Source: Bacillota bacterium (GTDB lineage: Bacteria > Bacillota_I > Bacilli_A > Izemoplasmatales > Hujiaoplasmataceae). Taken from it: 61,435 nucleotides of DNA. Both the position numbers and the translations under genes were made by a program. The stretch is from positions 1 through 61,435 of the forward strand of contig JAHIRM010000018.1 of the NCBI GenBank assembly GCA_018818595.1, in the 5' to 3' direction. Shown here piece after piece: positions 11,616 to 33,200 of the stretch. The notes under the pieces are model-generated. The model was given only the letters and a program-made list of their open reading frames with translations. It was not told where the DNA came from and searched no databases. Numbering within the stretch: the stretch's first letter is position 1; every line of letters begins with the position of its first letter.

Positions 11616-12245
11616 TTACTCTTGATCATTTTTCTTTTCACTTTTTAATTTTTCGAGAGCATCTTGTATCATTTTCTCTTTTTCTTCTAAAAAAATTTGC
11701 TTTTTTTGTTGACTGAGCGTTTTAATGATGTTTAAGCTCTCAGTAAAAGCAATCATGAGAAAAATGAGGACCGCGATAGCATATAAGAAATTCATGCCAC
11801 CACTAAACACAAAATAATAAATATCTCCTAAAAAGGTTGATTTAGAAAGGTATTTCCCAATAACTAAGCTTGAATCAAAGTTTATTTCCCAGTCAAGTGA
11901 CTCTTGGTTATTATCGCCTTTTGTCGTGATGTATGTAACGCCATCAATGACGGTAATGGATTTTATTCTATGCGTAATATAGACGCTTTCATCTCCTGGC
12001 TGATGAAACGTAATGATATCGTCTTTAAAGTATTCCGTCTCATTTGTATCTACAAAAATTAAATCACCTGTCATGATCGTATCTTCCATAGAAGGAGACA
12101 CAACTAGAAACATTCCATAACCGAAAACGGTAGGAGTTCTTTCGTTTTTAATAGAAACTACGATTTGTAATATTAAGGCAATTGCCATCGCAAAGAAAAG
12201 ATAAGGTAACACTTGTAAAATTATTTTTCCAGTTTTTTTAAGCAT
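11616..12245 (-). CDS. sipW: SipW-type (ER/archaeal-type) signal peptidase I, copy B
   Basis: 209 residues with an N-terminal membrane helix (about 10-30), an extracellular catalytic domain and a second helix near 150-170. The catalytic serine lies in SPSMEDTI, the histidine in ITHRI and the aspartate in TTKGDNNQ. This Ser-His-Asp pattern marks the ER/archaeal SipW branch; bacterial-type LepB uses Ser-Lys. SipW enzymes process TasA-like substrates outside the membrane. A charged, coiled-coil-like tail ends the protein. It is the last gene of the fibre operon, directly after two TasA-like genes (gaps of 42 and 16 nt), which are its probable substrates. GAGGTGA provides the ribosome binding site. 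Confidence 0.88.
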   Translation of the reverse strand: MLKKTGKIILQVLPYLFFAMAIALILQIVVSIKNERTPTVFGYGMFLVVSPSMEDTIMTGDLIFVDTNETEYFKDDIITFHQPGDESVYITHRIKSITVIDGVTYITTKGDNNQESLDWEINFDSSLVIGKYLSKSTFLGDIYYFVFSGGMNFLYAIAVLIFLMIAFTESLNIIKTLSQQKKQIFLEEKEKMIQDALEKLKSEKKNDQE

Positions 12246-12287
12246 TAGCCTTCACCTCAAGTTTAAGCGGTATTTATTCCATAATCT

Positions 12288-12872
12288 CTATGGATTCGAA
12301 TAGCCAGTTGAAAAATTGTAATTTGTTAATTCAACCCACGAAACATTGTCTGCTTGTTTTACTTCAATGGTAACTGTAACGGATAAAGGAACTCCAGAAT
12401 AATCAATTCCTACAAATTCTCCATCATAATACATCGATGTAAGAATGCTTATCGCTCCAGATTCAGCTGATATCACATAATCTAAAGCCGTGTAATACCA
12501 ATACTCGCTTGAATACAAAAAATTCGCATTCATCAAAACCGTTAAATGATCATCTACTGCATTAGAGTAAACAACATCATTTGCGGATGTTGTAACTTTA
12601 GTATATATAATTTGCATTCTCATTTGAGAAGTTATGGGTGAATTATTAGTTAACTCAAAAGCAGTAGAAATTAATTCTTGGCTTGGAACAATAATACTAT
12701 CCTGTGCAATGAATTCTCCTGCTTTTTCATAGCGTAAATCTCCTACGCCGATTTCACCGCTTGGAAGGGTTGTTTGTTGAACAATCCATCCATAAGAAAT
12801 CCCTATAATTACGAAAGAAACAAGTGCTAAGACTAAAGAGATTACACTAAAAATGAGTGCTTTTTGTTTCAT
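12288..12872 (-). CDS. TasA/camelysin-like secreted protein, SipW-type signal
   Basis: 194 residues with a long N-terminal hydrophobic stretch (about 7-27) followed by ISYGWIVQQTT, the arrangement seen in SipW-dependent signal peptides. The mature part is rich in beta strands and Thr/Ser (e.g. FELTNNSPITSQMRMQIIY, VTVTIEVKQ), resembling the jelly-roll TasA/CalY fold. It has no Cys, LPXTG or C-terminal helix, so it is probably assembled or released rather than anchored. It lies between another TasA-like gene and SipW copy B and shares the operon with them. Likely a minor fibre subunit or adaptor; the exact role is inferred from position. Confidence 0.65.
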   Translation of the reverse strand: MKQKALIFSVISLVLALVSFVIIGISYGWIVQQTTLPSGEIGVGDLRYEKAGEFIAQDSIIVPSQELISTAFELTNNSPITSQMRMQIIYTKVTTSANDVVYSNAVDDHLTVLMNANFLYSSEYWYYTALDYVISAESGAISILTSMYYDGEFVGIDYSGVPLSVTVTIEVKQADNVSWVELTNYNFSTGYSNP

Positions 12873-12888
12873 AAGTATCCTCTCCTTA

Positions 12889-13497
12889 TCATCTTTGAGA
12901 AGAAATTGAAATTGAAGAAATAATTAATTTTAGATTTTGGAAGTCATTACCTGCAAGTAACGAATCAATTGTAAAGGTAAAATAAAGATATACTGTACCT
13001 GCTGGCGATAATTCTAAATCGCCGGCAATTACAAGCCCTGAAGGCATTATAGCAAGTAAATCAGACATTAATTCAGCGTCTAATGCTTCCGTATTTATCG
13101 TATTTGAAGTAGTAATACGAATCACATCTAAAAGAGTTTGATTGTTGTCAAAGTTAGTAGTATCTCCTAAAGGGTCTGCTGCTGAATCTGTAAATTCATC
13201 TAAAGCAACTTGACAATGAATATCGATGTTTCCTGTGTTTTCAATCAATAAACGATAATAATAGATATCCCCTGGCACTCCGTCTATGATTTCAATCGAT
13301 GTTGCTTCAACATAGTTTTCTCCGCCATCTGTTGACACTTCTAAAATGGCAGACGCTTCAATATTGGCGATGTTTACCATCGGATTAACTATCTCAACGA
13401 TTTCTGATACCGCAAACCAAGCAAAAGAGGCTAAAACAAACAAAAAAACAGAACTTATCAATGCAATTAAAGATAAGGTAAAGCGTTTTTTTTGCAT
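12889..13497 (-). CDS. TasA-like secreted protein, SipW-type signal (AWF motif)
   Basis: 202 residues. The N-terminus has basic residues, a hydrophobic core (about 8-26) and then ASFAWFAVSE. This [AS]-x-AWF signature also occurs in the proteins encoded at 17.8 kb (GSTYAWFTVSS) and 34.5 kb (ASFAWFTQMYED), and is characteristic of SipW/TasA signal peptides. The mature part contains strand-rich segments such as YYYRLLIENTGNIDIHCQV, a typical pattern for TasA-family beta-sandwiches. A GGGGTGA ribosome binding site lies just before the ATG. It is translationally close to the DUF2357-like gene (16-nt gap) and the next TasA-like gene. Probably a minor subunit of the same surface fibre. Confidence 0.65.
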   Translation of the reverse strand: MQKKRFTLSLIALISSVFLFVLASFAWFAVSEIVEIVNPMVNIANIEASAILEVSTDGGENYVEATSIEIIDGVPGDIYYYRLLIENTGNIDIHCQVALDEFTDSAADPLGDTTNFDNNQTLLDVIRITTSNTINTEALDAELMSDLLAIMPSGLVIAGDLELSPAGTVYLYFTFTIDSLLAGNDFQNLKLIISSISISSQR

Positions 13498-13513
13498 GAT
13501 TTCACCCCGTTTT

Positions 13514-15091
13514 TTAGTCTTCGGCAGCTTCTAATTCTCGTTTCGCTTTTTCAAATGCTTTCACTAAACGTTTTTTTCTAGCGATACGAAGCAGTTTTTC
13601 AGCTCGTTCAATTTTCTTTTTAAGTGCAAGTTCTTCTTTTTGTTTTTGTTTCTTTTCCTCTTCTTTTCTTAGTCTTTCTTCTTCTAACAGACGTTCTCTT
13701 TCTGCTTTTTCGATTGCTTGAATTCGTTTTAATTCATCGCGATAGTTTCTAAGATTTAATAAAGCCACAGCTTTATTTGTTTTAAGTTGACGAATATCAT
13801 CTTGTTTAATATTTTCAATTTGTCTATACACATTAAGAATTTTTTCTTGTGTTGATATTTTATCAGTTAGATTTGGTTCGTTTTCAGGATTAAACATAAA
13901 TTTTATGTAGTCTTCATAAACTGCATTTGAAATATCAACAATTTGTTTAAAGATAATGTCAATTGCTTCTTCAAATGATATTCCTGCTTCAGATAAAGTT
14001 TTAAACCTAGCATAGTTGCTTTTTCGAATTTGGTCCAAATAATATTGATTCAAGTGATTGTTTTCAAACTCTAAATATCCAGGTTGTAAATACACATCAC
14101 TTAAATTTTGCTTTGTAATTTTTGGAGCTTTAATTCGTTTGTAATCAAAAGGCACATCTTGATTAATACCAAAATCTTCGCTTTGTTGACTTGCAAATGT
14201 TGTATAAAGCATTAATAAAGCGTTATTAATTTGACCTATATATTCTTGGTCAAAATCAATGTCTCTTTCAAAAATATCTACGTCATACCCTACTCTGTCA
14301 ATTTGGTCCATTAACACCCAAAGACTATAACATTGTCTAAAATCAATGTCTTTCATGATGATATTAGTTTTCATAATTGGTGGAGTAACTGGTGCAAATT
14401 CTTTCATTGCTTTCATAAAAGTAGACATTTTAAAATAAGTAATATTCGTTCTAACTTTTGTCATGCGATCAAACAACTCTTGATTTTGTTTGTCAACTTC
14501 ATCAGAAGGTAACGTTTGATTAATTTTTAATGTAATATCGTAATCAAGTGTTGCATCGTTAAAAAAGACTTCAGATTTCAGATTCAAGTAATTAACATAT
14601 TCTGTATGCATCTTTTTAACAATTAAGTCATATCTTTTTTCAATAAAGATAAATAGTTTATCAACTAATGTCATAAGGAACCGGTTTTCATAGGTTCCAA
14701 AATCAGAATCAGTATAAGAAGTTAAAACTTGAGATGGCGTAACTTCGCCTTTTGAATTCACATTTTTAATAAATTGTGTATTAGCAGCCAAATGCCTGAT
14801 GGTTTCTTTGTCGGTTTTCTTTGCTTGTTCAACAGGAACCACAACTCTAACTTTTTTTAGACTTTCTCGAGGATTTCGAGTCAATTTATCAATTACGGGA
14901 ACCGCTTTTTCCACAGAATCCAACCAAGAGTCATCAAATATCCGACGTTCTCGACGTTCTTTCTGATACAAAGTCGTATTCCCGCTTTTTAATAGGTTTA
15001 AAAATAATTGTGAAAATTCATCTTGTTCATTGAGTCGAGAAAAAGTGGAGTTTATTTTTTTATAGGTTTTCTTAGAAGCGTTATCTTTCAT
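13514..15091 (-). CDS. DUF2357-like protein, partner of the McrB-like ATPase
   Basis: 525 residues, predicted soluble, with no signal or membrane helix. Residues about 120-145 (SYTDSDFGTYENRFLM) match the YDTYENRF-type core of DUF2357 proteins, which are usually encoded next to McrB-like AAA+ GTPases/ATPases. Such proteins commonly carry a C-terminal PD-(D/E)XK nuclease domain; I see none. The C-terminus from about 430 is instead a long Lys/Glu/Arg-rich coiled coil (e.g. ERLLEEERLRKEEEKKQK). The start has a GGGTGAT ribosome binding site. It lies 11 nt after the ATPase gene, so the two are probably made together and interact. The function is unknown; in this operon a role in fibre secretion or assembly is more plausible than restriction. 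Confidence 0.6.
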   Translation of the reverse strand: MKDNASKKTYKKINSTFSRLNEQDEFSQLFLNLLKSGNTTLYQKERRERRIFDDSWLDSVEKAVPVIDKLTRNPRESLKKVRVVVPVEQAKKTDKETIRHLAANTQFIKNVNSKGEVTPSQVLTSYTDSDFGTYENRFLMTLVDKLFIFIEKRYDLIVKKMHTEYVNYLNLKSEVFFNDATLDYDITLKINQTLPSDEVDKQNQELFDRMTKVRTNITYFKMSTFMKAMKEFAPVTPPIMKTNIIMKDIDFRQCYSLWVLMDQIDRVGYDVDIFERDIDFDQEYIGQINNALLMLYTTFASQQSEDFGINQDVPFDYKRIKAPKITKQNLSDVYLQPGYLEFENNHLNQYYLDQIRKSNYARFKTLSEAGISFEEAIDIIFKQIVDISNAVYEDYIKFMFNPENEPNLTDKISTQEKILNVYRQIENIKQDDIRQLKTNKAVALLNLRNYRDELKRIQAIEKAERERLLEEERLRKEEEKKQKQKEELALKKKIERAEKLLRIARKKRLVKAFEKAKRELEAAED

Positions 15092-15102
15092 CTAGCATCA
15101 CC

Positions 15103-16755
15103 CTATATCTGTTTTTGTAAGTTTCGGATATATTTAACCGATTCTTCAAAATTGTTTTTTCCAAAAATTTTATTGATTTGTTGAACTAAAGTATCTAATT
15201 CATCTCTTAAAAAAGCTAAATTTAAGCTTTCAAATTTACGCAATACTTTATTCGCAAAAATGTAATCCAATCCAGCCTCTTCTGCTCCTCCACACGCTAC
15301 ATATACAGGTATAAATTTATGAAGTTGAACCATGATTCTATTACCAAAAGCAATCTTAAAATTCGATTGAACGTATTTATCTAAAATAAGGAATTTATCT
15401 AGTAACTCTGTTGAAACAGGATATTTATAAAAAGCTTCATCAAATAATTCTTGAAGATAAGAGTTAGACATATGAACCGGTTCTGTTTCAGGAGCTTGAA
15501 AGAAAACTCCTTTGCTTTCGAATTCTAATGCGATGGCTCTGTCATATACTTTATCTGTAATTGTAAAGGTGGAATCATCCTTATTAGCAGTACCAACAAA
15601 CCATACGTTTGGTGGAACTGTAATTTTTCCGTTGATTACTTTTAAAGGATCATTTGGCTTGCTATCAGGAACAAGGTCAATTTTCCATTCAGATTGATCT
15701 GGCATTTCCATGATAGATAAAAATTCTGCAAAATAATACTCAATTCGTGCAAGATTCATTTCATCTAATACGATAAGACTCACGTCTTTTCGATAAATAG
15801 ATTCATATAAAGCTCTTAAGAAATCTGTTTCATTAAATCGTTTTGTAAATTCATTTAAATACCCAATGATTTCTGCTCTATCTCTCCAAGATGGTTGAAC
15901 GGAAATGATCGCCGCATTATTATCAAAGAATTTCGCCATAGAATATGGTAAAGAAGTCTTTCCTGTTCCAGAAATACCTTCAAGGATAATAACTTTAGAA
16001 GACGCCATTCCAGCGAAAAATAATGAAATCATTTTTGGAGTATAATATAGTTTAAGTTGCGATGCAGAAAAATTAACAAATCGAGTAACTAACTCAGGCA
16101 GTGTAATATAATCAGACTCCACCATATAGATTTGTGTATCTTTTCCAGCATATTCTTTGTCTACTTGAATTAATTTAACAAAACGAGAAGGCCCTGTTTG
16201 AGCTTGAGAAGATGCTCTTGATTCAGCGTCTGGCTGATTACTAGGCATAGAGGGTCCCATAACGACTGTTGTATTTCCTGATGCCGTTCCATAAGCTGGT
16301 TGCATATAAGATCTTCCTGGGATAGGCCCTGTAACAATTCTTTCTGAAGGTTCACCTGTAGTTGCATTAATTCCAAGTTGAGAAACTTTCATAGCCATAA
16401 TTTGATTTTTTTCATCGGCAAGAGCAATCACTTTGTCATTTAAAAGAGCAATTTCTTCAATTAACTCATTTTTTTCAATTTCAATTTTACGAAAAGCCAT
16501 GTATTTCTTTGCCCATATAAAAAGTTTTGCAAATATAAATATCAAAAGTGAAATATTTAAGACAAAAGTTAATGCTACCATAGCCCAGGAAATAGGCGTA
16601 AAATCACCAGATTCCACATCTAATAATGCGAGGTAGGATCTTATGTTATTATAGATTTTAACAATAATATCATTCCATAATACGTTAAAAAAATCTTGGA
16701 AATCTTGCCAAAAATATCTAAATAATTCTATATAATAGCGAGAAAATTGATTCAT
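15103..16755 (-). CDS. Membrane-anchored McrB-like AAA+ ATPase
   Basis: About 550 residues from the ATG at 16755, chosen because GGGAGG precedes it by 9 nt; upstream in-frame TTG 16779 lies before that site. A hydrophobic helix at about 57-80 is followed by a coiled coil (88-125), a Gly/Ser/Pro-rich linker (140-190) and an AAA+ module of the AAA_5/McrB type. Walker A is GISGTGKT (260-267). Walker B is LIVLDEMNLARIEYYFAEFL (327-346), very close to McrB proteins. A GTANKDDST segment stands where McrB has its MNxxDR motif. Nucleotide preference (ATP or GTP) is not predictable. The membrane anchor and the SipW/TasA neighbours are unlike restriction McrB. It probably works with the downstream DUF2357-like protein as a remodelling motor on the inner face of the membrane. 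Confidence 0.82.
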   Translation of the reverse strand: MNQFSRYYIELFRYFWQDFQDFFNVLWNDIIVKIYNNIRSYLALLDVESGDFTPISWAMVALTFVLNISLLIFIFAKLFIWAKKYMAFRKIEIEKNELIEEIALLNDKVIALADEKNQIMAMKVSQLGINATTGEPSERIVTGPIPGRSYMQPAYGTASGNTTVVMGPSMPSNQPDAESRASSQAQTGPSRFVKLIQVDKEYAGKDTQIYMVESDYITLPELVTRFVNFSASQLKLYYTPKMISLFFAGMASSKVIILEGISGTGKTSLPYSMAKFFDNNAAIISVQPSWRDRAEIIGYLNEFTKRFNETDFLRALYESIYRKDVSLIVLDEMNLARIEYYFAEFLSIMEMPDQSEWKIDLVPDSKPNDPLKVINGKITVPPNVWFVGTANKDDSTFTITDKVYDRAIALEFESKGVFFQAPETEPVHMSNSYLQELFDEAFYKYPVSTELLDKFLILDKYVQSNFKIAFGNRIMVQLHKFIPVYVACGGAEEAGLDYIFANKVLRKFESLNLAFLRDELDTLVQQINKIFGKNNFEESVKYIRNLQKQI

Positions 16756-16812
16756 AAATTCCAACCTCCCTTCCTGCAAATATCAGTAGCAAAAAGATTA
16801 TAGATTTTCTAC

Positions 16813-17526
16813 TTATTCAGTAGGTTCTTCTTCTTTTTTTTCTTTTGGTTTTATTTTTACTTTTGTTTCCGCTTCAAGTTGAGCTCTTGCCATAGCAAGT
16901 GCATCTTCTTGCATTTGTACTCGACTTCCCAAAGCTTTTTGAACGTTATAGTCTGACACTACTTTGACAAAGCGAATAATTTCGTAAACTAAGAAAGCAA
17001 AACATGGTAATACAATAAATAATAAGAATCCTGTTCCTGATTTCAAGAATGAAACAAGTCCATCGGTAAATGATCCAAGATTTGACCAAACTTTCCCATT
17101 CCATACACCGATAATATCGCCTTCAAAAACGATTTCTAATTGATCTTCGGGATTGTTATCACCATGAGTTGTAAACCACTTGATGCCTCCAATTTCATTG
17201 ATTTCTTTGATAGTATGCGTATTATAAATGTCAACTGGTCCATCAGGTGTGACTAACGTCATTCTATACGATATTACATCATTTTCTAGCAAATCATCTA
17301 CATTAAAGGTCGTGTCAATAAAAATTAAATCACCTTCATCAAAAGTAGGACTCATAGAATTAGATTGCACAGATAAAACTGATACACCTAAAAAAGTAGA
17401 ACTATTTTTGTCTTGATCTGAAAACAGTGCCAAAACAGAATAAATTAGTACTAACCCGAGTACAACCCAAAATATCACATTTCCCGCGACTTTTAGTTTG
17501 CTTTTGCTGTTTATTGCGTTTTCCAT
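16813..17526 (-). CDS. sipW: SipW-type signal peptidase I, copy A
   Basis: 237 residues from the ATG at 17526, which follows AGGAG by 8 nt; the in-frame GTG 17535 upstream is too close to that site. N-terminal helix about 15-35, catalytic domain, second helix about 165-190, then a Lys/Glu-rich cytoplasmic tail. Ser-His-Asp residues of the SipW/ER type lie in VQSNSMSPTF, YNTHTI and THGDNNP. It should cleave TasA-like precursors such as the neighbouring 299- and 255-residue proteins. It leads the distal half of the operon, behind a possible internal promoter, and precedes the McrB-like ATPase gene by 57 nt. A second copy closes the operon, suggesting a division of substrates. Confidence 0.88.
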   Translation of the reverse strand: MENAINSKSKLKVAGNVIFWVVLGLVLIYSVLALFSDQDKNSSTFLGVSVLSVQSNSMSPTFDEGDLIFIDTTFNVDDLLENDVISYRMTLVTPDGPVDIYNTHTIKEINEIGGIKWFTTHGDNNPEDQLEIVFEGDIIGVWNGKVWSNLGSFTDGLVSFLKSGTGFLLFIVLPCFAFLVYEIIRFVKVVSDYNVQKALGSRVQMQEDALAMARAQLEAETKVKIKPKEKKEEEPTE

Positions 17527-17664: not shown

Positions 17665-17702
17665 TTTTCCAAACACACAAAGGAATTTATGTGTTTGGAA
17701 AA
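17665..17702 (-). terminator. Stable hairpin A in the intercistronic region after the major subunit
   Basis: Perfect 13-bp stem TTTTCCAAACACA/TGTGTTTGGAAAA with a 12-nt loop. There is no strong T tract directly after it. Probably a partial terminator or 3'-end stabiliser of the fibre-subunit mRNA. Confidence 0.5.
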
Positions 17703-17717
17703 AACAACCCTTTATGG

Positions 17718-17751
17718 TAACACAACTTAGGATTTCGCCTAAGTTGTGTTA
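17718..17751 (-). terminator. Stable hairpin B after the major subunit gene
   Basis: Perfect 14-bp stem TAACACAACTTAGG/CCTAAGTTGTGTTA with a 6-nt loop, the first structure after the subunit stop codon. On the minus strand TTTTTT follows only after 13 nt. It could reduce read-through and protect the upstream mRNA, giving more subunit than downstream machinery. Confidence 0.55.
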
Positions 17752-17807
17752 GTATTGAGGTTATTTTTTACTTTTAATTTTTGTGAAAAACTATTGTTTT
17801 AATCGAT

Positions 17808-18707
17808 TTAAAGAATGGTGAAATTAAAAGCTACTGTCATTGGAGCGGCAGCAACATCTTGAGTTGCCTCTGCATCCCATCCTTCAAGATAAATTGTAAC
17901 AAATACTACAACTGGAACGTTTGCTGTTAAAGTTTGAATAGTTGCGCCGTCAGCTCCGTTTGCAGCTGTAACAGATGCAGCAAAAGCAACTCCAGAATCT
18001 AGAACATAAGTAGAATATTCAGAAATTAAGTTAAAATTCGTATCCGTGATTGCAGGAATAGCAGCTAAAGATGTTCCGGCAAATGAGTAATCATAATCCA
18101 TATCTGTTCCAAAAATCTTTCCATTAGTATTACCAGTAGAAGTGATTGCAAGTCTCATGGAATTTTGAACAGCTGTATTAACTGTTCCAGATCCAGAAGT
18201 ACCAGTAACACTTTGTGTAGCTAATTTTAAAGTAGCATCCGTTTGTGCCATTACCCAAAATTTTAATTGGATAGCATATCCGCTTGTTGAATTAAAATCC
18301 GTTGTTGCAGTTAATGCTCTAGCGGTTGTTCCACCTATTACATTAAATGCATTTGCAAGTACACCAGAGTAATCTGTTTCCACTGTCGTAACAGGGGACA
18401 TAGTCCAAGTAGCTAGAGAATACCCTAGTCCGGTTCCAAGGCCTGTTGGATCAAAGTTGTCGCTTGTTAATGCTGTTGTGTAATTAGAAGGTGTTAGTTC
18501 AGCAGAAGTTGGAGAAGCATTAATAGCAGTAGTAGCTGGTGCAACTTTAATTAATAGTGACTCTGCTGTTGTAATGTTTAATTCAAGAGATGAAACAGCA
18601 ACAGTTGAAGATACGGTAAACCATGCATAAGTTGAGCCGATGGTCGCAACTAATGCGAAGAATAATACAAATGCTGATAGTAAAACTTTTGTTTTTAATG
18701 ATTTCAT
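17808..18707 (-). CDS. Probable major TasA-like fibre subunit, SipW-type signal
   Basis: 299 residues. The signal region (Lys-rich start, hydrophobic core about 8-24, then GSTYAWFTVSS) is a clear SipW-dependent TasA-type signal peptide. The mature chain is rich in Ala, Thr and Ser, very low in Lys/Arg, free of Cys, and made of strand-like segments (YAIQLKFWVMAQTDATLKL, VVVFVTIYLEGWD), as expected for a secreted polymerising beta-sandwich subunit. AAGGAG precedes the ATG. It is the second gene after the c-di-GMP riboswitch, and two very stable hairpins follow it, typical of an abundant subunit whose mRNA is stabilised or partly terminated. Probably the bulk component of the fibre; abundance is inferred, not measured. 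Confidence 0.75.
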   Translation of the reverse strand: MKSLKTKVLLSAFVLFFALVATIGSTYAWFTVSSTVAVSSLELNITTAESLLIKVAPATTAINASPTSAELTPSNYTTALTSDNFDPTGLGTGLGYSLATWTMSPVTTVETDYSGVLANAFNVIGGTTARALTATTDFNSTSGYAIQLKFWVMAQTDATLKLATQSVTGTSGSGTVNTAVQNSMRLAITSTGNTNGKIFGTDMDYDYSFAGTSLAAIPAITDTNFNLISEYSTYVLDSGVAFAASVTAANGADGATIQTLTANVPVVVFVTIYLEGWDAEATQDVAAAPMTVAFNFTIL

Positions 18708-18762: not shown

Positions 18763-19530
18763 CTATAAATTTGGGTTGTAAATCCTACTAATCGTAAATT
18801 TCATTTCGAATTTTACGCCGCCGCTGTGAAGATTTATGTTATGATTGGAATCTTCTCCTTCATACCATAAAATAACTGTCACTTTTAAAGTTTGCTCCGG
18901 TTGAAATTCAATGAATTCTTGATTCATAACAGTGGTAGCCCCTACGAAAGGATCCGTTAACGGTTCAAGCATTCCTGGATTATCTCCTGATGCTGATTGA
19001 ACCCTTGCATAAGTTGTTCCAACTCCATTAAAGATCACCCTTACTCTTACAGCCTCATCAGCTCCCTTAGTAACAGATAAGAGCGAAATGGTCGCAGCTA
19101 AATCTACTGCATACTGTCCTGCATTTTGTACGTAAAAGGTTTGAACAAGGTAATTTTCGCCATTATTGGGTCCATTAACTGATCCAAGTTCTTCATCAGA
19201 AGGTATACATACACTATCTCCTATTGAAAATTCTGTGTACTCTGTTCCGCAATAGGCTGTCATTCCATCAGCTTCATCAACCTTATTTGCGATAATTCGA
19301 GTAACGAAATCAGGTACTTCAGGATCATCATACATCGTAATCCCAGCATCAAGGGCTAACCTATCAACTGAGAAGCTGAAGTTTCCCACCACTTCTCCAT
19401 AGTAAGATATTGCAAAAATCAGAAAGGTAAGAACAGCACTAACGACAATTCCTAAGCGACTAGCTTTGGCAATCCGTGTTGCTTTGGAAGCATAGATTAT
19501 TCTTCCGGCTAATTTAGCTTTTTGGCTCAT
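18763..19530 (-). CDS. SipW-type secreted protein, first gene of the riboswitch operon
   Basis: About 255 residues from the ATG at 19530 (GGAGGG lies 12 nt before it). An in-frame TTG at 19557 lies upstream of that site and is less likely. A long basic N-region (KAKLAGRIIYASKATRIAKA) precedes a hydrophobic core and then YYGEVVGNFSFSVDRLALDA, which recalls TasA/SipW substrates in which the mature protein starts soon after the membrane segment. The mature part has two Cys (in AYCGTEY and DSVCIPSD) that could form a disulphide, and strands such as EQTLKVTVILWYEGED. It lies between the riboswitch and the major subunit gene. It may act as a fibre initiator or anchor; this is inferred from its position. 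Confidence 0.65.
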   Translation of the reverse strand: MSQKAKLAGRIIYASKATRIAKASRLGIVVSAVLTFLIFAISYYGEVVGNFSFSVDRLALDAGITMYDDPEVPDFVTRIIANKVDEADGMTAYCGTEYTEFSIGDSVCIPSDEELGSVNGPNNGENYLVQTFYVQNAGQYAVDLAATISLLSVTKGADEAVRVRVIFNGVGTTYARVQSASGDNPGMLEPLTDPFVGATTVMNQEFIEFQPEQTLKVTVILWYEGEDSNHNINLHSGGVKFEMKFTISRIYNPNL

Positions 19531-19654
19531 ACCGCATGCAATCCCTCCCATCTTCAATTATAAGGCAGGCTTTTGGTAATAAAAAAAGCCACTACCTTTT
19601 TGAGTACTCGGTCATTTTATACTTCTCACACGTACATCATAAGAAATAAAAAAT

Positions 19655-19678
19655 GCCCTCGTCTCTAAAGACAACGGC
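19655..19678 (-). terminator. Riboswitch-controlled intrinsic terminator (expression platform 1)
   Basis: Minus strand GCC-G-TTGTCT-TTAG-AGACGA-G-GGC followed by ATTTTTT. The 5' arm GCCG is also the 3' end of the aptamer, so the two folds compete. If ligand binding stabilises the aptamer's closing helix, the terminator opens and the genes are ON; this direction is inferred. Confidence 0.75.
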
Positions 19679-19744
19679 AACTGGCTACCATCTCATCGAA
19701 GGCCCTATAGCTTTGCGTCACTAACTTTCGCTAGTTTTGCTATT
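19674..19744 (-). ncRNA. Cyclic di-GMP-I riboswitch aptamer (GEMM), copy 1
   Basis: Minus strand shows the GEMM-I features in order. First, AGCAAAA for the closing helix, pairing with TTGC. Then a hairpin ACTAGC-GAAA-GTTAGT capped by a GAAA tetraloop, then the conserved GACGCAAAGCTATAGGGCC, then a second arm ending in TGGTAGCCAGTTGCCG. The GAAA loop and the ACGCAAAGC core are hallmark ligand-pocket and tetraloop elements of this class. It lies in a 5' leader of about 220 nt, behind a perfect consensus promoter, before the TasA/SipW/McrB-like operon. Confidence 0.9.
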
Positions 19745-19753
19745 TACGCACTC

Positions 19754-19782
19754 ATTATATATTAGTCAAATTTCTTTGTCAA
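19754..19782 (-). promoter_or_regulatory. Consensus sigma-A promoter driving riboswitch 1
   Basis: TTGACA (19777-19782), exactly 17 nt, TATAAT (19754-19759): both hexamers perfect. Initiation is expected about 10 nt before the aptamer. Such a strong promoter suits an operon controlled mainly at the riboswitch. Confidence 0.9.
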
Positions 19783-23099: not shown

Positions 23100-24617
23100 T
23101 TATTTATAAAATTTATCGAAAGTATTCATATCCCATGGAGATTTCTTTAACATTTGGGTGACGTCTTCTGTAGATTTAGGTGGGCTGAAAAAATATCCTT
23201 GTAAAAATCTAACATCTAAATCAGCTATTTTTTGAATCATGATTTCGTCTTCAATGCCTTCGGCAATGACTATTTTTTGCTTTTTCATTGCAAATTGAAT
23301 GACTCGTTGAATTTGATCTGACTCTGGAAAATCATTCATAATTTTTAAGACATCTTCTCTGCTAATTTTAATAATGGTAGCTTGAATGGAATCCATATCT
23401 GTAACTAGTTCAAATTGATCTCCTAAATCATCGATTGCAATTCTAAACCCAAACTTTCTAAATTCTCCTAAATTGTGAATTGCAATTGGATTTTTAATAA
23501 TTGTGTAATAGTCCAATATCTCTAGGCAAAATATTTCTGTTGTTACTTCGTGTTTTTTTACAATATCAAAAAAAGATTTAGCTAAATTTTGAACCATTAA
23601 TTGTTTTGGAGATAAATTAATGGAAATAAAAACATCTTTTACTCTAAATTGTTTTTTCCAATTTACATATTGAGATACCACTTTTTCAAATCCCCACGTA
23701 CCAAACCACGTAATGTCACCAGTTAAATCCATTACGTTTAAAAATTTTCCTGGTGGCAAGATTCCCATGGTAGGGTGATTCCACCTTAAGAGGGATTCTA
23801 ATCCTATAATCTTTCCTGTCTTAATATCTACGATTGGTTGATAATAAAGTAAGAATTCATCATGAGAAATGGATTTTTTAATTTCTTGGTAGTAATTAAT
23901 GTTGAATTGTTCTTTTTCAATTAAATCTTCTGAATAAAGGGCGAAACGATTTTTCCCTTCTTTTTTTGATACGTAGAGTGCTATTTCAGCATTTTTAATT
24001 AGTTGCGTTGCATTAATTCCATCATAAGGAAATACGACGATACCGATTGATGTCGTAATATTCTCCGCCACAGACTTTAAGGGTTCGCTTACCATCAACA
24101 ATAATTCTTGTGCAGATCTTTGAATCACGTCATTGTCAATTTTGCCTGATAGATAGCAGATGAATATATCGTCTTCATAGTGTCCACAAATACTTGATTT
24201 TGATTGAGTTCTCTTTAATCGTTTTTCAATTTCTAAAATAATCTTATCTACTTCTTTTTGATCATACTTATCAACGATAAATCGAAAATTATCAAGATTC
24301 ATAAAAAATAAAACACTAATCGCTCCTTCTTTTGTATGACGAATTTCTTGATCGATTAGTCCAACGATGTCTTTGCTTTTCTTACTTATAGTTTTTGATT
24401 CTGAAATTAATTTAGCTTGTTTGTTTGAAGCGTTTTCCCCTTCGTCTTGTTTTGTTTTTAAAAGTTTTCGATCATTCTTTTCTTTTTTAATTTCTTTCAT
24501 TACATTTTTAAACAAAAAATACAAGACAAGGCATGTCATAAAAATTATGACGATAGCAGCAACTAATTCCCAGGTTTCTCCAGGGTATGTTGTATCTAAC
24601 ATGTTAAGTAATCTCAC
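23100..24617 (-). CDS. Membrane-bound degenerate GGDEF-EAL protein, likely c-di-GMP receptor or weak phosphodiesterase
   Basis: About 505 residues from GTG 24617 (GAGGTGA just upstream). One membrane helix lies at about 17-37, then a coiled segment, a GGDEF domain (about 75-230) and an EAL domain (about 245-500). The GGDEF motif is replaced by YEDDIF, so no diguanylate cyclase activity is expected. In the EAL domain ESL replaces EAL and the Asn of INLSPKQ, the Glu of LEILD and the Glu of AEGIE remain. However, loop 6 DDFGTGYSSL has become DDLGDQFELV and the KID lysine-aspartate motif is KIS. This mixture suggests binding without efficient hydrolysis. It is the last gene of the riboswitch-2 operon, starting 12 nt after the active-looking phosphodiesterase gene. 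Confidence 0.82.
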   Translation of the reverse strand: MRLLNMLDTTYPGETWELVAAIVIIFMTCLVLYFLFKNVMKEIKKEKNDRKLLKTKQDEGENASNKQAKLISESKTISKKSKDIVGLIDQEIRHTKEGAISVLFFMNLDNFRFIVDKYDQKEVDKIILEIEKRLKRTQSKSSICGHYEDDIFICYLSGKIDNDVIQRSAQELLLMVSEPLKSVAENITTSIGIVVFPYDGINATQLIKNAEIALYVSKKEGKNRFALYSEDLIEKEQFNINYYQEIKKSISHDEFLLYYQPIVDIKTGKIIGLESLLRWNHPTMGILPPGKFLNVMDLTGDITWFGTWGFEKVVSQYVNWKKQFRVKDVFISINLSPKQLMVQNLAKSFFDIVKKHEVTTEIFCLEILDYYTIIKNPIAIHNLGEFRKFGFRIAIDDLGDQFELVTDMDSIQATIIKISREDVLKIMNDFPESDQIQRVIQFAMKKQKIVIAEGIEDEIMIQKIADLDVRFLQGYFFSPPKSTEDVTQMLKKSPWDMNTFDKFYK

Positions 24618-24628
24618 TTGTTTCACCT

Positions 24629-27190
24629 CTATTCATAATAATCTTTTGCGGCAAAAACATCAATCCGTTTCATTTTTGCGACCTTATAAAATTGGTCAAT
24701 GTAATTGATGGTTTCATCGTATGTCAATGGTTTTGAAAACAAAAACCCTTGAAAAATATCTGTTGAGATTTGCTTTAAATATTCATACTGTTTTTTTGTT
24801 TCAATACCTTCAGCAACGACCTTCATGTCTAGGTTGTGGACAAGTTCCACAATCGTACCAATGATTGAATGATCTTTTTTCCCGCCAAAAATTCCATCCA
24901 CAAATGATTTATCTATCTTTAAATTATCAAATGGGATTTTTCGCAAATAGGTAAGTGAAGCGTATCCCGTACCAAAATCGTCAAGTGCGATTTTAGCTCC
25001 AATCGCATGTAGATAATTAATGGTTTCTTCTAAATAAATCGTAGATTCTATTAAAACACCTTCGGTTATTTCTAATACCAAATAACGAGGGTTAATATTT
25101 GTTTCTCTAATAATTCGTTTCAATACATCAATGAAATTCTTTTGCAAAATTTGTACAGGGCTTACATTGACTGACATCACAAAATCTCTTTTAAACTTTT
25201 TTGCGAACTCAACTTGAGCTTGACAAGAACTTTCTAAAATCCAAGTTCCAATCGGAATAATTAATCGCGATTCCTCAGCATTTGCAATAAAGACTTGAGG
25301 GCTGATTTCGCCAAGAGTTGGCGATTTCCACCTTACTAGTGCTTCAAATCCGTAAATTTCATTTTTATTGTCTATTAATGGTTGGTACTTTAAATATAAT
25401 TGATGTTTTTCAATAGCTACTGCTAGTTCATCACTAATTTGAGCGTGATAATTTACTTCTCTTGTTAATTGATCATTGTAAAAAATGTATTTCCCAAATC
25501 CAGCTTCTCTTGCTTTATATAACGCTGTATCACACTTCTTCATCAATTCAGACATGTTCTTACCATCTGATGGGAAGATAGAAATTCCTATATGTATTTT
25601 TACTTCTACTTTTATGTTTTTTATCTCAAATGGTTCTATAAAGCTTTCCAAAACTTTTAACACTTCTGTTTCAACGATTTCTAATGACTTAACTCCTTTA
25701 ATTATGAAAACAAATTCATTTGAACTGTTACTCAATATATTTTCATTATTAGGTAGCGTTTTTTGAAGTCTTAACGCAATTGCTTTGATTAATTCATCGC
25801 CTATCATTTGACCTTTAGTTACGTTGATATCTTTCAGATTATCAACATCTAACAGACAAATTGCGACCTTTTCATTTGGTTTTAATATTTGTTCGTCAAT
25901 TTCTGAATGAACGGACTTTCGGTTTTTAAGTCCAGTTAATGAATCATATAAATAACTTTGATATACTAAATCTACTTGTTTTCCAATTTCTTTAGACATA
26001 ATATTTAAAGCATCCGCAACGTTTTTCAATTCGTTATTTTCTGAAATTTGAACGTCGATGTTATAATTTCCATTCTTAATTTCTTCAATCGAATGAAGAA
26101 TGTCACTTACCGGGCTTAATGTTTTATTAATCTTTTTACTCAAAATGATTGCAACAAGAATCATAAGGATTAAAATGAACACCACTAAGAATAAAAAAAT
26201 GATTTCTATTCCAATAAAAACTTCTTTTTCAACGAGAACAGCAACGGTCCATTTACAATCATCTAAATAAGAAAACGACACACTATAGTCTGTTCCGAAG
26301 ATACTTAATTTTTGAACGTTATCTTGATTTTCAATGTTTTGAATTAACAATCCAAGTCCGTTTTCAGGGTATCCATAAGCTTGATCAAGAACAATAACTT
26401 CGGGTTCATCAAGCATTTGATAACCTGGAAGTGCTGCATCTGAATAGTGCAAAACAGTTAAAACTCCGTCTTTTTCAACAAAGATAGCAAGTGCTTTTTG
26501 AGAATCATTTGAGTAGTAATCGTATTCGTAAATTGCTGAGGAAATGGTTGATACCAAGACATCAATTCCAAGGTATCCAATCACTTCTTCTCCATTATAC
26601 ACTTTACTGACAAAAGTTAAAACATCTTCTGAAGATAAACTATCAATATAAGGCCCTGTAAACACAAAATCGTTTTGACCTAGTTCAATAAACCACGGTC
26701 TTTGTTGAAGTGTCCAAGTATCGTCAGATATTTGGCCGGAGGTTCCTACAAAACATCCATCCTCACCTGTCGAACAATTTGTGTCAGTTGCTACAAATAA
26801 AAAATCATATACTCCTTCAGAACTATAATCTTTCACAGATTCTAGTAGTAAGATAAATTCATTATAAATAAGATAATTAGGATCTAGTGTATCTGTTATA
26901 ATCGGATTTGACCCTGTTTGAAGGTATGTTAAATAATTAATGACCGCTTCATCTTCTGCAAGCATAAACACATCACTTGTAGTATCTTGAATAAAAGCAT
27001 GAATTGCTGTAACTGCATTATTTGATTCTAGTTCAGCATTTCGAATTTCAGAATTTGTTAAACTATCTATATAAACAAAAGAAATGATTGCCATGATGAT
27101 GACTAAAAAGAGCGCGTCCAAAAAAACAGTCAAACTAACAATTCTTTTGGCTAAACTATTTTGTTGAATTTTTGCTTTTCTTCTCTTCAT
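24629..27190 (-). CDS. dCache-HAMP-GGDEF-EAL cyclic di-GMP phosphodiesterase
   Basis: 853 residues. Helix about 17-38, a large extracellular sensor domain (about 45-325, dCache-like, with a Cys pair in TNCSTGEDGCF), a second helix about 327-350, a HAMP-like linker, a GGDEF domain (about 412-575) and an EAL domain (about 590-840). The GGDEF signature is SSNEF, so cyclase activity is probably lost. The EAL domain keeps its catalytic set: FEALVRW, VNVSPVQ, LEITEG, DDFGTGYASL, LKIDKSF, AEGIET and QGFLFSKP. It should hydrolyse c-di-GMP to pGpG in response to an outside signal. It shares its transcript with the giant secreted protein, under a c-di-GMP riboswitch, forming a likely feedback loop. Confidence 0.9.
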   Translation of the reverse strand: MKRRKAKIQQNSLAKRIVSLTVFLDALFLVIIMAIISFVYIDSLTNSEIRNAELESNNAVTAIHAFIQDTTSDVFMLAEDEAVINYLTYLQTGSNPIITDTLDPNYLIYNEFILLLESVKDYSSEGVYDFLFVATDTNCSTGEDGCFVGTSGQISDDTWTLQQRPWFIELGQNDFVFTGPYIDSLSSEDVLTFVSKVYNGEEVIGYLGIDVLVSTISSAIYEYDYYSNDSQKALAIFVEKDGVLTVLHYSDAALPGYQMLDEPEVIVLDQAYGYPENGLGLLIQNIENQDNVQKLSIFGTDYSVSFSYLDDCKWTVAVLVEKEVFIGIEIIFLFLVVFILILMILVAIILSKKINKTLSPVSDILHSIEEIKNGNYNIDVQISENNELKNVADALNIMSKEIGKQVDLVYQSYLYDSLTGLKNRKSVHSEIDEQILKPNEKVAICLLDVDNLKDINVTKGQMIGDELIKAIALRLQKTLPNNENILSNSSNEFVFIIKGVKSLEIVETEVLKVLESFIEPFEIKNIKVEVKIHIGISIFPSDGKNMSELMKKCDTALYKAREAGFGKYIFYNDQLTREVNYHAQISDELAVAIEKHQLYLKYQPLIDNKNEIYGFEALVRWKSPTLGEISPQVFIANAEESRLIIPIGTWILESSCQAQVEFAKKFKRDFVMSVNVSPVQILQKNFIDVLKRIIRETNINPRYLVLEITEGVLIESTIYLEETINYLHAIGAKIALDDFGTGYASLTYLRKIPFDNLKIDKSFVDGIFGGKKDHSIIGTIVELVHNLDMKVVAEGIETKKQYEYLKQISTDIFQGFLFSKPLTYDETINYIDQFYKVAKMKRIDVFAAKDYYE

Positions 27191-27212: not shown

Positions 27213-30200
27213 CTAATTGCCTGCCCACGATCTAAAGAAATCAAACAATCCCCAAGGTGCGTCCGTTGAAACGGGGTTTGCTTCTCTTATATATATATTA
27301 AATCTTCGAGATCTATTTTTTGTCGCATACTCGATGTAAAAATACTTGCCTTCGATTTCAGAAACTAAATCTAAATTGAAATCTGTTGTCTCATATAATG
27401 TATATTCTAAAAATTCGATTTCATAAGTATATAAATCATTTAGGTAAGCATCGAGTGGTAATTCGACATCAAACACATAGAATCCTCCACGGTTACGACC
27501 AAAACTATATCTGTAATTTTCTGAAGTTGTTAAGTAAAACTGACTCATTTGATTATATAATCCTGTGATTTCGGTGAACTCTGGATAATCATCTGGGTTT
27601 TCTACATTAATAACTGAGTCATCTCCATCGGTCATGAGATTCTTAACAGAAATAATAGCAAGTTTATCTGAAAAATCGACACTTTCTGAAGCTAAAGTAC
27701 AAACTTCAGGTTCTCCAGAACAATAATAGACATCAAAGATTAATGTAACATTATAGGTCACATCTGTGACGGTAACGTAGTAATAAGTATAAAAATCTCG
27801 GTCTTCTGATGTGACTCGATATTGAATTACGACTTCCTGTTCTCCAACTGGTTCTTCACCTGTCAAAGGCATCAAGGTATAATCGGTAATTAATTCATTT
27901 TTTTCAGCTGGATCTGAATTAATATCCACTTCAGTCGTCCAAGACCAAGTTAATGCCTGCAAATCATAATCATGTCTTGAAAGAGTGGCTCCATAAGGAA
28001 TATAGTTTAACATAAATGGTACATAATCATTTAAAGTAACATTGGAAACTTGTCCATCAACTCTAAAATAACGATAACCTAACGTATTTGCTCCATCATA
28101 ATCAATTCCCGCAAAATAGACTCTAGGATCAAGCCCGGTAGCTTCATTCACCGCTCCAAATTCATCAGTGATACGAATGGTGGGATAACTTGTTTCATTG
28201 GCTAAATCGGAAAAACGAATATCGGTTAAATAAGCATCAGTTCCAGCCAACTTCGTAATGTCAAGCGTATCCACAAAGGAAACATAATAGGCTGTTCCAT
28301 CACGGTAAAAGTATCCGCTAAATGTATAAATTCCTGGGATTGTAGAATAACTCATTGTAATGTATAGATAATCTCCTGTTGAAAAAGTAATCCCTACAAT
28401 ATCTTCTTCAAGATACGTGGTTAATCCATCTAAACTAGTCGCCGTAATAGAAATGTCAAAATAGGATGTACTTCCTTCAATTATGTTATAAAGATTTAAG
28501 TTTTGATCGAGTCCAAGATCTACCGTAAATACGGTAAAATCGTCTTCACGAAGAGCAAATACATCTTCTAAATCTGTATCATTTCCATTGGTCAATACTG
28601 AAACCAATCCAATGGAACGTTCAATCAAATTATGGGTGTATATTTGAGTTGAGTTATCTTCAGCTTTAATTATAATTTCAATTTGATACGTTTTATATCC
28701 ACTGTTATATGTTGTACTTACAAGTCTTGCACTTGTTACACTTGCAAACTTAGAAAGAGAAAGTGTGTCATCATACATATAGCTAATGTCATACGTTGCA
28801 TTTGATAAATAGGCAACTATTCCACCATCAATGTTTTCTGTAAAATTATCCGTTAATGCCGTTATACTAACCAAAGCACCTAAACTTATGTAAGACGTAA
28901 TGGTTGTTCCAACAATAGAAATAGAATCATCTTCTGAATAATAATCAAAATCAATTATTGTTTTTGCAGATGATGCTGCTTTATCAAACAAAACGGTATT
29001 TGTAGCACTACTGCTAAAGTATCGATATTCAAAGTGATAATCTGCCGAACGTAGATTACCATAAAACGTAAATGTAATACTATAATATCCTGTGCCGGAA
29101 GTAATCGTAACCGGATCGGCTAAAACAGTATAATAAGAGGAAGGGATAATATCATCATTACTATATCTTAACACAAAATAGTCTTTAAAATCATAGCCTA
29201 AAGTTAAAATACCTTTTGTATCCTCAAAATTAAAGCGAATCGATCCAGCAGAGGTTACATCGCCTAAACTTCGAACATCTTCAGGGTTGGTTGCTGTGAA
29301 GGTAGATCCTCCATTAAATTGAACAGAATCAATGCCGATTGTTCCTGTAGAAATCCCAGAAATTCCTGGTGTAAAGATAATATAGACTTCATAATCAGTA
29401 TAATAATTTGATGATGCAAAGATCAAACTTCCTATAAAAGCTTCAGAATAGACAGTTAAATAACCAAGAAACATCGGAGCTGTGTCAGCTACTATGTCTT
29501 TTGATGGTAGGGTTATTTCCAAAAGGGCAGGAAAACTCATTGAAATACCGTCATATCTTTCAGGGTACAACAGCGTTCGGTATTCCAATAAATCTACAGG
29601 ATCTGGATCATAGGCATCTTCGGCTTTTTCAGCTACGAGTGCATTTAACGATGTAAAAGCATTCGTTACAGCATAATTAGCTGTTAAGTCCAATCCTGAA
29701 AATGCTTCCATACTAATGGTATACGTAATAATGAAATTGTCATTATCAATATCCGCGTTGGCAAGTATCGTATCTGAACCATCATTTTCTGTTAAAATCA
29801 ACAGTTCTGTACCGCTTGCAATTAATTCTGATTTTTCATTAAAAATGGTTTGTCTTAAATCGTCGTATTTACTTATTAATAAAGTATTTAAATCTGCTTG
29901 AAACGAAACAGATACATTTGCATAATCAATCAGTAAAGAAATTTGTGATGCATAGTCTTCATCGATTGGTCTAATCTCATCTGTATTAATATTGGCAGGT
30001 AATACAGCTCCATAAGTAGAGCCTGCTGTAGTGGATAATACATACATTCCATCTGGACGATAGTTTGGGCTTAATTCGTCTTGAAAACGATCTGCTAATA
30101 GAGTAGATCCCATGAAATAAATATATTCGGTTAAATCAGGATTTACTCTCATTTCAAAATCTGCGTCGTACATATATTCGGTATCTGAATTCGAAATTAA

Positions 30201-33200
30201 TGGATCAAATTCATCTTCAGTGATCCAAGGAACATCGATTGAGTCTATGTAATAAGGTGTAGGAGTAGATAAAAGCGTGCCTATAACCGGAGTTGATCTA
30301 CTCGTTGAAGTGTACGAATACGTTCCTATAATAACATTAGGAACAGCTTTTTCTATTACAATCCCAACTTGTTCATACACGTAGTTCGTTGCTGTTATAC
30401 TCCAGTTTCTACTATATCCTGTATAACTTGTTATTTCATAGAAATAGCCTAGATTAAATCCAGTGAACACAGCTTGTGTGGTGTCGTCAACTTTTGCAGA
30501 ATAATAAACAGCATCATTAAATCTAAAAAAACGAGAAGAACTTGAAAAGTTATATACTTGATCTAATCGTCCAATTAAATCAACATCTGGGTCTGCGTTT
30601 ACAATAAAGTCAAATTCGCCACCCACACTTGTCATAATTCCACTTAATCCTCTTTGAAGACGTCCAAAGATACCGCCAAAACCTCTTTTACCTCTTGGTT
30701 CCTCAACGGTGTATCCTGTTGGATATAAAAAGATATCATCTATATCCATAAAATAACTGGAGATATCTGAATAACTCATAGAATAAGAATTAATACTTGA
30801 AACATCCCCCGCTGGGACTGCTCTAATATTTCCATAATTAATAGCGGTGTTGATGTGTACAATAGTGGTTTCTGATCCAAGAGCATAAGTTGCCCCTACT
30901 ACCCCTCCTGCCACATCCGTTGAAGAAACTGTTCCATGGTTTAACATGCGTCTCATCACTGAAAGTCCATACCCAATAACGCCTCCTGCAGAAGCGTTAA
31001 TTTCTGGTCGTTCTTGAGAAGCTGTTGTAGTATATTGAGAATAAACTGCTCCATATGTTGTAGCAGCTCCATAGATGATTTCAAAAGATTGATTAGTTGG
31101 AGTATCTTCAGTATACTCTTTTATAATAACAGTCAAAGCTGATACGTTTCCAAAATTTAATCCATTAGATAAAACGGATAACTGAATGGTGTTTAAAAGT
31201 CCCATTCCAGCAGTAATTCCTCCTGCATAGGCTTCAGCATACAAACTAACACCTAGTACACCACCAGCTCTTGCAAAACGATAACTTTTTGCGACGATAT
31301 CGCCATTGTTACCTGTATCATAAACTCTAGCATCACCTGATAAGGTTGCCGCGACTACTCCTCCTACAACCACTCCTCCTGCATAAATTGAAATTAATCC
31401 TGCTGAAGTTTGATCTGTTAGGAATGTTGCGGTTGCTGAAGAATTTGAATTATATACAGTGACATCTCCTAAATTTGCTGCATCTTGGATGGAGCCCGCG
31501 TTTAACGTAGCAATTCCACTAGCAAACGTATTGCTAAGTCCATTTACTCCATAAATATTTTGAGCTTCAAGTCCATAAGATGTCGTAATGTTTCCATAAT
31601 TAATGGTATTGATAATACCAATGGTCGCAATGGGTAGAGTAGGATTCTGAGTTTCTGACTGTAAATCTCCAGAAAGATTGGTGTTAGTAATTCCACCAAC
31701 CAGTAAAATGCCTGTACCAGTCATTTTAGCAAAAACAAGATTTCCTTCATTTAAAGAATTCTTGATGTATTTCCCGCTTGTTAGTGTTTTTGTGATTCCA
31801 GAAAGATAAAGTGCGTTCGTTCCAACGTTTACATTCACAACACTTAATGTTCCATAATTGGATACATTTAAGAAATTCACATTGGTCGAAGTGGTAATTC
31901 CAGAAATAGATAAAGTCGTCGCTAAATTAATGACGGTTAACCCTGAATCTTTCCAAAAAGTAACATCTCCATAATTCGCAGAATAGCGAATGATCGTTGT
32001 ATTATTATTATCAGAACGATACAAAGGCGAAATATTGACATAATAAGAAGAATCGTAAACGAAATCTCCATGATTATAAACTCGAGAAAGAGTTACGGCT
32101 TGTGTTCCTATATCAAAAATGGTTCCTGTGTATTGGAATAATTGATTGGTATAAGTTGCTCCAGTCGTATTATAAATAAAGGTTCCATAGTTAAATAATA
32201 ACGCATATTCGACTGGCACGCTTGTATTTGTTATTCCAATGCCAGCAGCTTTTATAACTGAGGTTTCTGTTACATATGAAGCATGAATCGTTCCGCTATT
32301 ATACAAATTTGCAAATTGATAATCAGGTCCTGTTTCTAAAACAGGTTTCACTCCCGTTAATTCACCAAATACACCACCAATTCGTTGATTTGATGGTAAC
32401 GAAACAGTATTTGTAACACTATTAACATAAAGATCTCCCATATTTGCTACATTGACAAATTGATGAATGGCAGTGGTTAAATTTAAGATATACCCAACAA
32501 CTCCACCCATTTTAACGGTGATAGCGGTTGTTCCAGATGCAAGATAAAATGTAGAAGAAGTTCCAAATCCATAAAGCGTTCCATGATTTACAGCTTCTGT
32601 TACTACTAATTGAGCTTGATCTGCAGAACCTACGATTCCACCAATATAATATTTAGCTGCGATATTATAAGTGGATAAAAAGGTATGAGTATTCATATTG
32701 ATTGTACCACTACTTGAAACTTCGTTGATGACTCCAGATGCTTGTCCTACGATGCCACCAACATGGGTTTCGCCTATGGCTCCAGTTCCCATATTAATGT
32801 CAACATCAACGATAACATCCTCTATGATGCCACCAGTCATTCTTCCAGCTATCGCGCCTACATAAAAGACACTACTATAGTAAGTTGCTGTATTGGTAAG
32901 AGAAATAGTAGATTCATTGAAATTTAAATTATTAACCGAAGCCCCAGATCCAATCACACTGAACAAACCAGCATAATATAGAGTTCCTCTCAAAATTCCA
33001 GTTGAAATTGTCAAATTATAAATATAAAAATTATCACTTAAATCCGTTCCTTGATCGTTAAAACCAGTCAGACTTCCATAAAAAGTCACATTTGGTGTTG
33101 TATAAACCGTTGTCGCTAAAACACCCATATCAATATCGTCAGTAATTTCATAATCTGCATAAGCATAAGCAACACCGTTATTTTCGGTAACAAATGCTAA

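Follow-up and report, generated by a model that had tools for sequence, protein, structure and literature searches.

In McrBC type IV restriction, as in Escherichia coli and Thermococcus gammatolerans, an AAA+ protein, McrB, works with McrC, which in the known complexes stimulates the McrB ring via its DUF2357 part. CoCoPALM is a further type, named without a function in a few main-text sentences of a survey of restriction systems (Bell et al, 2024; eLife, PMC11090510); it combines an NxD McrB GTPase bearing a transmembrane and coiled-coil domain, a coiled-coil McrC and adjacent signal peptidases, and was placed near the CoCoNuTs. Our literature search found the term solely in this article and its preprint. 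In Staphylococcus aureus, a McrB-family protein, PcdA, has moved from restriction to a role in the cell envelope (PMC10602043). The TasA fibres of Bacillus are encoded by a tapA-sipW-tasA operon that is under SinR control and has no ATPase or DUF2357 gene. Here, we analyse a 61,435-nucleotide stretch of a Bacillota bacterium of the family Hujiaoplasmataceae (hereafter the window; assembly GCA_018818595.1, contig JAHIRM010000018.1, positions 1 to 61,435), in which the genes for a McrB-type AAA+ ATPase and a DUF2357-like protein lie between two SipW-type signal peptidase genes and genes for TasA-like secreted proteins.

By its NxD motif (GTANKDD in the window), the signal peptidase genes alongside and a McrC homologue with a coiled coil, the window system is CoCoPALM as delineated in the main-text passages of PMC11090510, a kind that is known and unstudied. 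A first interpretation of the window, made without database searches (the sequence-only reading), had taken the combination to be undescribed, which these passages contradict. They mention no TasA-like cargo, c-di-GMP riboswitches, GGDEF/EAL genes or McrC-SipW fusion, although the supplement may differ; relative to them, the link to cyclic di-GMP (c-di-GMP), the TasA-like cargo, the McrC-SipW fusion and the evidence against defence are new. We propose that the pair is probably a CoCoPALM-type NTPase, derived from McrB and McrC, that serves TasA-like fibre biogenesis at the membrane when c-di-GMP is high. That the pair helps to make or handle TasA-like fibres, and does not act in restriction, is well supported, because no nuclease was found, the pair lies in a SipW/TasA context, a McrC-like protein is fused to a SipW-type peptidase in relatives, the operon is under predicted c-di-GMP control and its chromosomal synteny is stable.

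A McrB/McrC-like pair within a SipW/TasA-like operon

All the genes pointed out by the sequence-only reading were recovered at its coordinates, on the minus strand and with the tight spacing it described, between two SipW genes and TasA-like genes, the identity of the latter being weaker than that of the other parts. In order of transcription, the operon comprises:

19754..19782, minus strand: consensus promoter TTGACA-17-TATAAT, agreeing with the sigma-70 consensus at 12/12 positions and adjoining the riboswitch upstream
19673..19751, minus strand: c-di-GMP-I riboswitch aptamer at the head of the fibre operon (Rfam RF01051, 62.4 bits, gathering threshold 35), kept upstream of the operon in relatives
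19648..19679, minus strand: terminator-like hairpin and T run (sequence and RNA fold), overlapping the final 7 nt of the aptamer match
18763..19530, minus strand: TasA-like protein 1, 255 residues from ATG, with a single N-terminal hydrophobic segment; the most widely kept secreted partner
17808..18707, minus strand: TasA-like protein 2, 299 residues, likely major fibre subunit, with a signal peptide ending TYAWF and a model whose best match is the TasA fibre 8aur
17699..17769, minus strand: intergenic hairpin between subunit and machinery genes (-29.6 kcal/mol, z -7.6)
16813..17526, minus strand: SipW-type signal peptidase 1, endoplasmic reticulum/archaeal type, with a charged C-terminal tail (TIGR02228, 68.3 bits)
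15103..16755, minus strand: McrB-type AAA+ NTPase of the NxD type (NKDD), predicted to be membrane-anchored, with a transmembrane helix and then a coiled-coil-like linker (motifs, hydropathy, profile match)
13514..15091, minus strand: DUF2357/McrC-like protein with a long C-terminal helix in the model and no nuclease found (PF09823 in 14/18 alignment members)
12889..13497, minus strand: TasA-like protein 3, 202 residues, with a signal peptide ending FAWF; family kept in the operon, PF12389 in 4/17 of a joint alignment with protein 4
12288..12872, minus strand: TasA-like protein 4, 194 residues, assigned on the same basis as protein 3
11616..12245, minus strand: SipW-type signal peptidase 2 (TIGR02228, 70.9 bits)

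The ATPase can be read from a TTG (15103-16779) or, more likely, from an ATG (15103-16755), and displays the motifs GISGTGKT (Walker A), LIVLDEMNLARIEYYF and GTANKDD. Across ten diverse aligned sequences, GISGTGKT, LDEMN and GTANKDD vary by small substitutions at most, and several arginines are invariant; NxDD is present in 10/10, and the NxD spacing marks the NxD branch of McrB GTPases. In a profile search of the PDB, the ATPase alignment matched the McrB structure 6hz4 (E 7e-5). With Walker A, Walker B, sensor 1, NxD and arginines all intact, the ATPase appears to be active. Complete copies have one strong hydrophobic helix near residue 60-80, which copies cut by a contig end can lack, followed by a positively charged stretch and a conserved, helical-looking linker. 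Transmembrane and topology calls were made by hydropathy alone; because positive charge follows the hydrophobic helix, the positive-inside rule suggests a cytoplasmic location for the AAA+ ring. Where CoCoPALM is described with an FtsB-like transmembrane and coiled-coil part in the passages cited above, we see one hydrophobic helix and a charged, helical-looking linker, with no match of the ATPase N-terminal part to Pfam FtsB/DivIC among the families shown. Library searches found no DNA-binding family in its N-terminal 200 residues. The Walker motifs, McrB-type segment and membrane helix of the sequence-only reading therefore stand, and are kept in relatives. Compared with McrBC, with which it shares a McrB-homologous AAA+ protein and a DUF2357 partner, the window system differs in that no PD-(D/E)xK nuclease was found, and by the N-terminal membrane helix, NxD instead of NxxD and the fibre context.

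The neighbourhood is conserved far beyond chance

We found orthologues of the DUF2357-like gene in 32/34 genomes of the same family, in a single gene order, which is continued by genes for a metallo-beta-lactamase-fold protein and for a pyruvate:ferredoxin-oxidoreductase-like protein. When GTDB genomes were scanned with the ATPase, at least 579 relatives were found; the top 80 were inspected and are referred to as named loci. All 54 named loci with sufficient flank on both sides have a SipW-type gene next to the ATPase. It is directly upstream in 66 of 71, DUF2357 is downstream of the ATPase in 65/72 and TasA-like genes are upstream in 48/50. The co-occurrence that the first interpretation proposed to check thus extends across genomes. 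These SipW-ATPase loci span Izemoplasmatales, Acholeplasmataceae, Ruminococcus and other Bacillota.

As the named loci were picked by similarity to the query, a control sample was taken from 392 genomes of the phylum, 90 of which had a match, and we inspected 20 loci from among the strongest matches and 20 with weaker ones. All 20 strong-match loci have SipW and TasA-like genes, and 14 of the 20 weaker-match loci have no SipW in the stretch inspected. The latter comprise seven ~900-residue and three short membrane forms, as well as four in which the membrane helix is missing, and rule out the SipW association as a trait of all McrB relatives. On a tree of 62 ATPases (quick method, with some long branches), the SipW label needs two changes versus 13.6 for shuffled labels, and the trait appears confined almost entirely to one ATPase clade. 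Overall, the conservation of the neighbourhood far exceeds chance, and the synteny together with the taxonomic breadth rules out a restriction system inserted by chance. Among the loci, L166-L172 encode ~900-residue membrane McrB-like ATPases with a DUF2357 partner and without SipW, seemingly another uncharacterised membrane McrBC type.

The same data bear on whether the pair could be a membrane-bound, CoCoNuT-like defence that senses or blocks the entry of phages or plasmids, the fibre genes forming an outer barrier or being merely co-located. The ATPase stems from the McrB family, its longer reading (15103-16779) matches the PADLOC candidate-defence model PDC-M26A (6e-41), and the cited passages of Bell et al put CoCoPALM near CoCoNuTs. 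On the other hand, the pair is near-universal in the family and syntenic with housekeeping genes, unlike a defence island; no nuclease or other toxic effector was found; and neither co-regulation with fibre genes by c-di-GMP nor fusion of the McrC-like protein to a signal peptidase (both described below) fits such a function, which we consider improbable. Defence-finding pipelines flag such loci through PDC-M26A though they are fibre-like, and these may thus be listed as defence.

A McrC-like partner, fused to the peptidase in Ruminococcus

The DUF2357-like gene starts 11 nt past the ATPase stop. The window protein itself is below Pfam DUF2357 detection, and PF09823 is matched by 14/18 members of its alignment (best 3.3e-12). 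Its AlphaFold2 (AF2) model (predicted local distance difference test, pLDDT, 78.8; predicted TM-score 0.42) has as its top two structural rows the McrC chains 6ut5_G and 6ut7_G of T. gammatolerans McrBC (Z 7.0 and 6.8, root-mean-square deviation (rmsd) ~7); Foldseek alone gave no significant match. The structural score is middling, yet it agrees with the Pfam result. The region after the DUF2357 part is modelled as helices and one strand, with a final helix at 408-524, and would thus leave little space for a PD-(D/E)xK fold. Pfam matched no nuclease family to the window protein, to the relatives aligned with it or to five long ones, and a nuclease hidden in the 525-residue protein, for which the first interpretation had suggested profile searches and structure prediction, was rejected, as the Pfam, PADLOC and PDB profile searches and the AF2 model gave none. 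Its claim of a DUF2357-like gene without nuclease thus holds, a long predicted helix standing where McrBC has the nuclease. Most DUF2357-like relatives have long charged C-termini, absent in L067, which has only 376 residues.

Both window peptidases pass the TIGR02228 signal peptidase I cut-off (70.9 and 68.3 bits) and do not reach the Bacillus subtilis SipW equivalog NF046067 (79.5 and 67.7 bits versus a cut-off of 190). In nine Ruminococcus-type loci (L121, L128, L132, L134, L139, L141, L144, L146 and L149), a DUF2357 protein of ~990 residues carries a SipW-type peptidase at its C-terminal end (E 2e-42 to 2e-46), with the serine, histidine and aspartate peptidase motifs intact in the three fusion sequences inspected. 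Nothing else points as strongly to joint action of the McrC-like protein and the peptidase as this McrC-SipW fusion.

The fusion would also fit a scaffold, structural or regulatory, that exerts no force: a membrane NTPase switch placing SipW at a given cell site, as PcdA does for FtsZ. PcdA provides the precedent for such a co-option of McrB, and shares with the window ATPase the move from restriction to the envelope (PMC10602043). In PcdA, however, the catalytic motifs are degraded, EVE domains are present and a McrC partner is missing, whereas here the catalytic motifs are intact and invariant and the activating partner is kept, which makes a force-free scaffold rather unlikely.

TasA-like secreted proteins

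Family searches with the four window secreted proteins matched no sequence family, PF12389 included, and PDB sequence profiles of TasA-like 1 and 2 gave no match. When TasA-like 3 and 4 were aligned with relatives, 4/17 members matched camelysin/TasA PF12389 (3.3e-6). Matches to TIGR04088, the SipW-dependent signal model, were weak (0.016 and 0.13), and this label was set aside. For the AF2 model of TasA-like 2 (17808-18707), the TasA fibre 8aur ranks first both in Foldseek (E 2.9e-3, thus not below 1e-3) and in VIA-align (Z 6.2, 151 aligned, rmsd 6.3), followed by the 0406 filament, CFA/I and type 1 pilins and bundling pili, but also by unrelated beta-sandwich enzymes; this is supporting, not conclusive, for a TasA-like fold. 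The 8aur match begins at residue 30, just past the presumed cleavage site, and the TasA donor strand comprises residues 28-38 (TasA fibre paper). The window system would therefore share with the TapA-SipW-TasA fibres of Bacillus a SipW-type peptidase, a subunit model resembling the TasA fibre and a signal peptide ending shortly before the presumed donor strand; it differs in having the ATPase and DUF2357 genes and a c-di-GMP riboswitch in place of SinR control. TasA-like 1 has homologues in nearly all related loci, as far as Ruminococcus, TasA-like 2 is often duplicated in relatives, and the TasA-like 3/4 family is kept in their operons. The Bacillus cereus CapP/TasA/CalY system, considered as a described relative, was rejected, since the part of the source consulted presents a chaperone-like protein and mentions no AAA+ partner. 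The stable hairpin at 17699-17769 may set the ratio of subunits to machine high.

Predicted control by c-di-GMP

Two c-di-GMP riboswitches, and GGDEF/EAL genes linked to them, had escaped the sequence-only reading. The second riboswitch, near-identical in sequence to the first, heads a separate group:

35329..35407, minus strand: second c-di-GMP-I riboswitch (RF01051, 64.3 bits)
27213..34484, minus strand: giant secreted protein, 2423 residues, under the second riboswitch; giant homologues adjoin the ATPase operon in relatives
24629..27190, minus strand: dCache-HAMP-GGDEF-EAL protein, with EALVRW and DDFGTG present and the GGDEF motif degenerate
23100..24626, minus strand: degenerate GGDEF-EAL protein

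At both riboswitches a terminator-like hairpin overlaps the aptamer end, which suggests an ON switch, the direction being predicted. In the 80 named loci, RF01051 gave 48 matches in 30 loci, every one on the operon strand; the control set gave 30 matches, in 13/20 strong-match and 0/20 weaker-match loci. Genomes of the same family have the Rfam riboswitch at the operon head, and two order-level relatives (L061, L062) have one also upstream of the SipW-ATPase-DUF2357 genes. In the window genome, 5/5 RF01051 matches precede SipW/TasA-like or giant surface genes. GGDEF/EAL genes occur in 28/41 loci having 6 kb upstream, and relatives hold giant and GGDEF/EAL genes within or beside the fibre operon. 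Searches with the RF01051 model found no riboswitch in the Ruminococcus loci, where a small, degenerate EAL protein is encoded immediately upstream.

Tandem c-di-GMP-I riboswitches, two to four, stand ahead of the fibre operon in L091, L182, L186 and L189. Small EAL-family proteins without the EAL motif itself are encoded upstream of TasA1 in the Ruminococcus loci L121, L123, L128, L139, L141 and L146, and are perhaps c-di-GMP receptors rather than enzymes. On contig C15 of the window genome, a second SipW locus (L159, 2618-6340) encodes TasA-like and repeat-rich secreted proteins behind three c-di-GMP-I riboswitches, with no ATPase.

AAA+ proteins often extract proteins. The pair could accordingly strip fibres, or pull subunits and signal peptides out of the membrane and recycle them, in response to changed conditions such as a fall in c-di-GMP caused by the linked EAL enzyme. 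Such a disassembly or release machine is in line with the co-encoded EAL phosphodiesterase and with L159, from which the ATPase seems dispensable for export as such. Machinery and subunit genes nevertheless share a cluster, and the machinery's own riboswitch in L061 and L062 suggests joint expression, not opposition, so that we regard this possibility as unlikely.

Proposed function in fibre assembly

The sequence-only reading had proposed a membrane motor for TasA-like fibres. The fibre role is borne out by the gene context, the fusion, the c-di-GMP link and the lack of a nuclease; the motor action of the McrB/McrC-like pair is what we infer. In the biogenesis role that we favour, c-di-GMP binding would block the terminator, the McrC-like cap would activate the ATPase hexamer and coiled coils would dock the hexamer on the SipW-type peptidases. 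Anchored by its membrane helix and joined to a partner that bears a coiled coil or SipW, an NTP-driven ring would stand where TasA-like precursors are cut, and NTP hydrolysis would hand over, release or position the membrane-held precursors, coupling signal-peptide removal to donor-strand polymerisation. The giant protein would be a co-regulated surface adhesin, and the linked EAL enzyme would lower c-di-GMP as feedback. That the ring hands over or positions subunits for polymerisation seems to us not quite an even bet. A fuller statement is put forward tentatively: a GTP-driven McrB/McrC ring in the membrane would act as assembly motor for a class of bacterial surface fibres of its own, linking SipW cleavage, under c-di-GMP control, to the donor-strand polymerisation of the TasA-like subunits.

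Several points weigh against this assembly role. In Bacillus, TasA and SipW work without such an ATPase, and the TasA fibre paper mentions none; the window genome itself has an ATPase-less SipW locus (L159). As both do without a ring, the ring must add more than export, perhaps regulated or directed assembly. Moreover, the fold matches are middling (Z 6-7), the TasA-like 2 subunit model has a pLDDT of 66, the transmembrane and topology assignment of the ATPase is predicted from hydropathy, and we infer the motor activity, the nucleotide type and the contact between ATPase and subunits. Finally, no DUF2357 gene was detected beside some second copies of the ATPase (L094, L096, L101, L105, L108, L110).

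If true, the system would be an energised machine for fibres that differs from type IV, sortase and chaperone-usher pili and derives from an antiviral enzyme. CoCoPALM gains a concrete and testable role from the riboswitches, EAL-type genes, TasA-like cargo and McrC-SipW fusion, which suggest the complete switch of a restriction machine to envelope biology. Cultured relatives, namely Acholeplasma granularum, Paracholeplasma vituli, Ruminococcus albus and R. flavefaciens, make tests possible.

The second ATPase copies named above have as neighbours a giant protein (mostly ~1950 residues) together with secreted proteins, TasA3-like or other. Several of these genomes also carry a DUF2357-bearing ATPase copy, in one case on the same contig (L083/L101).

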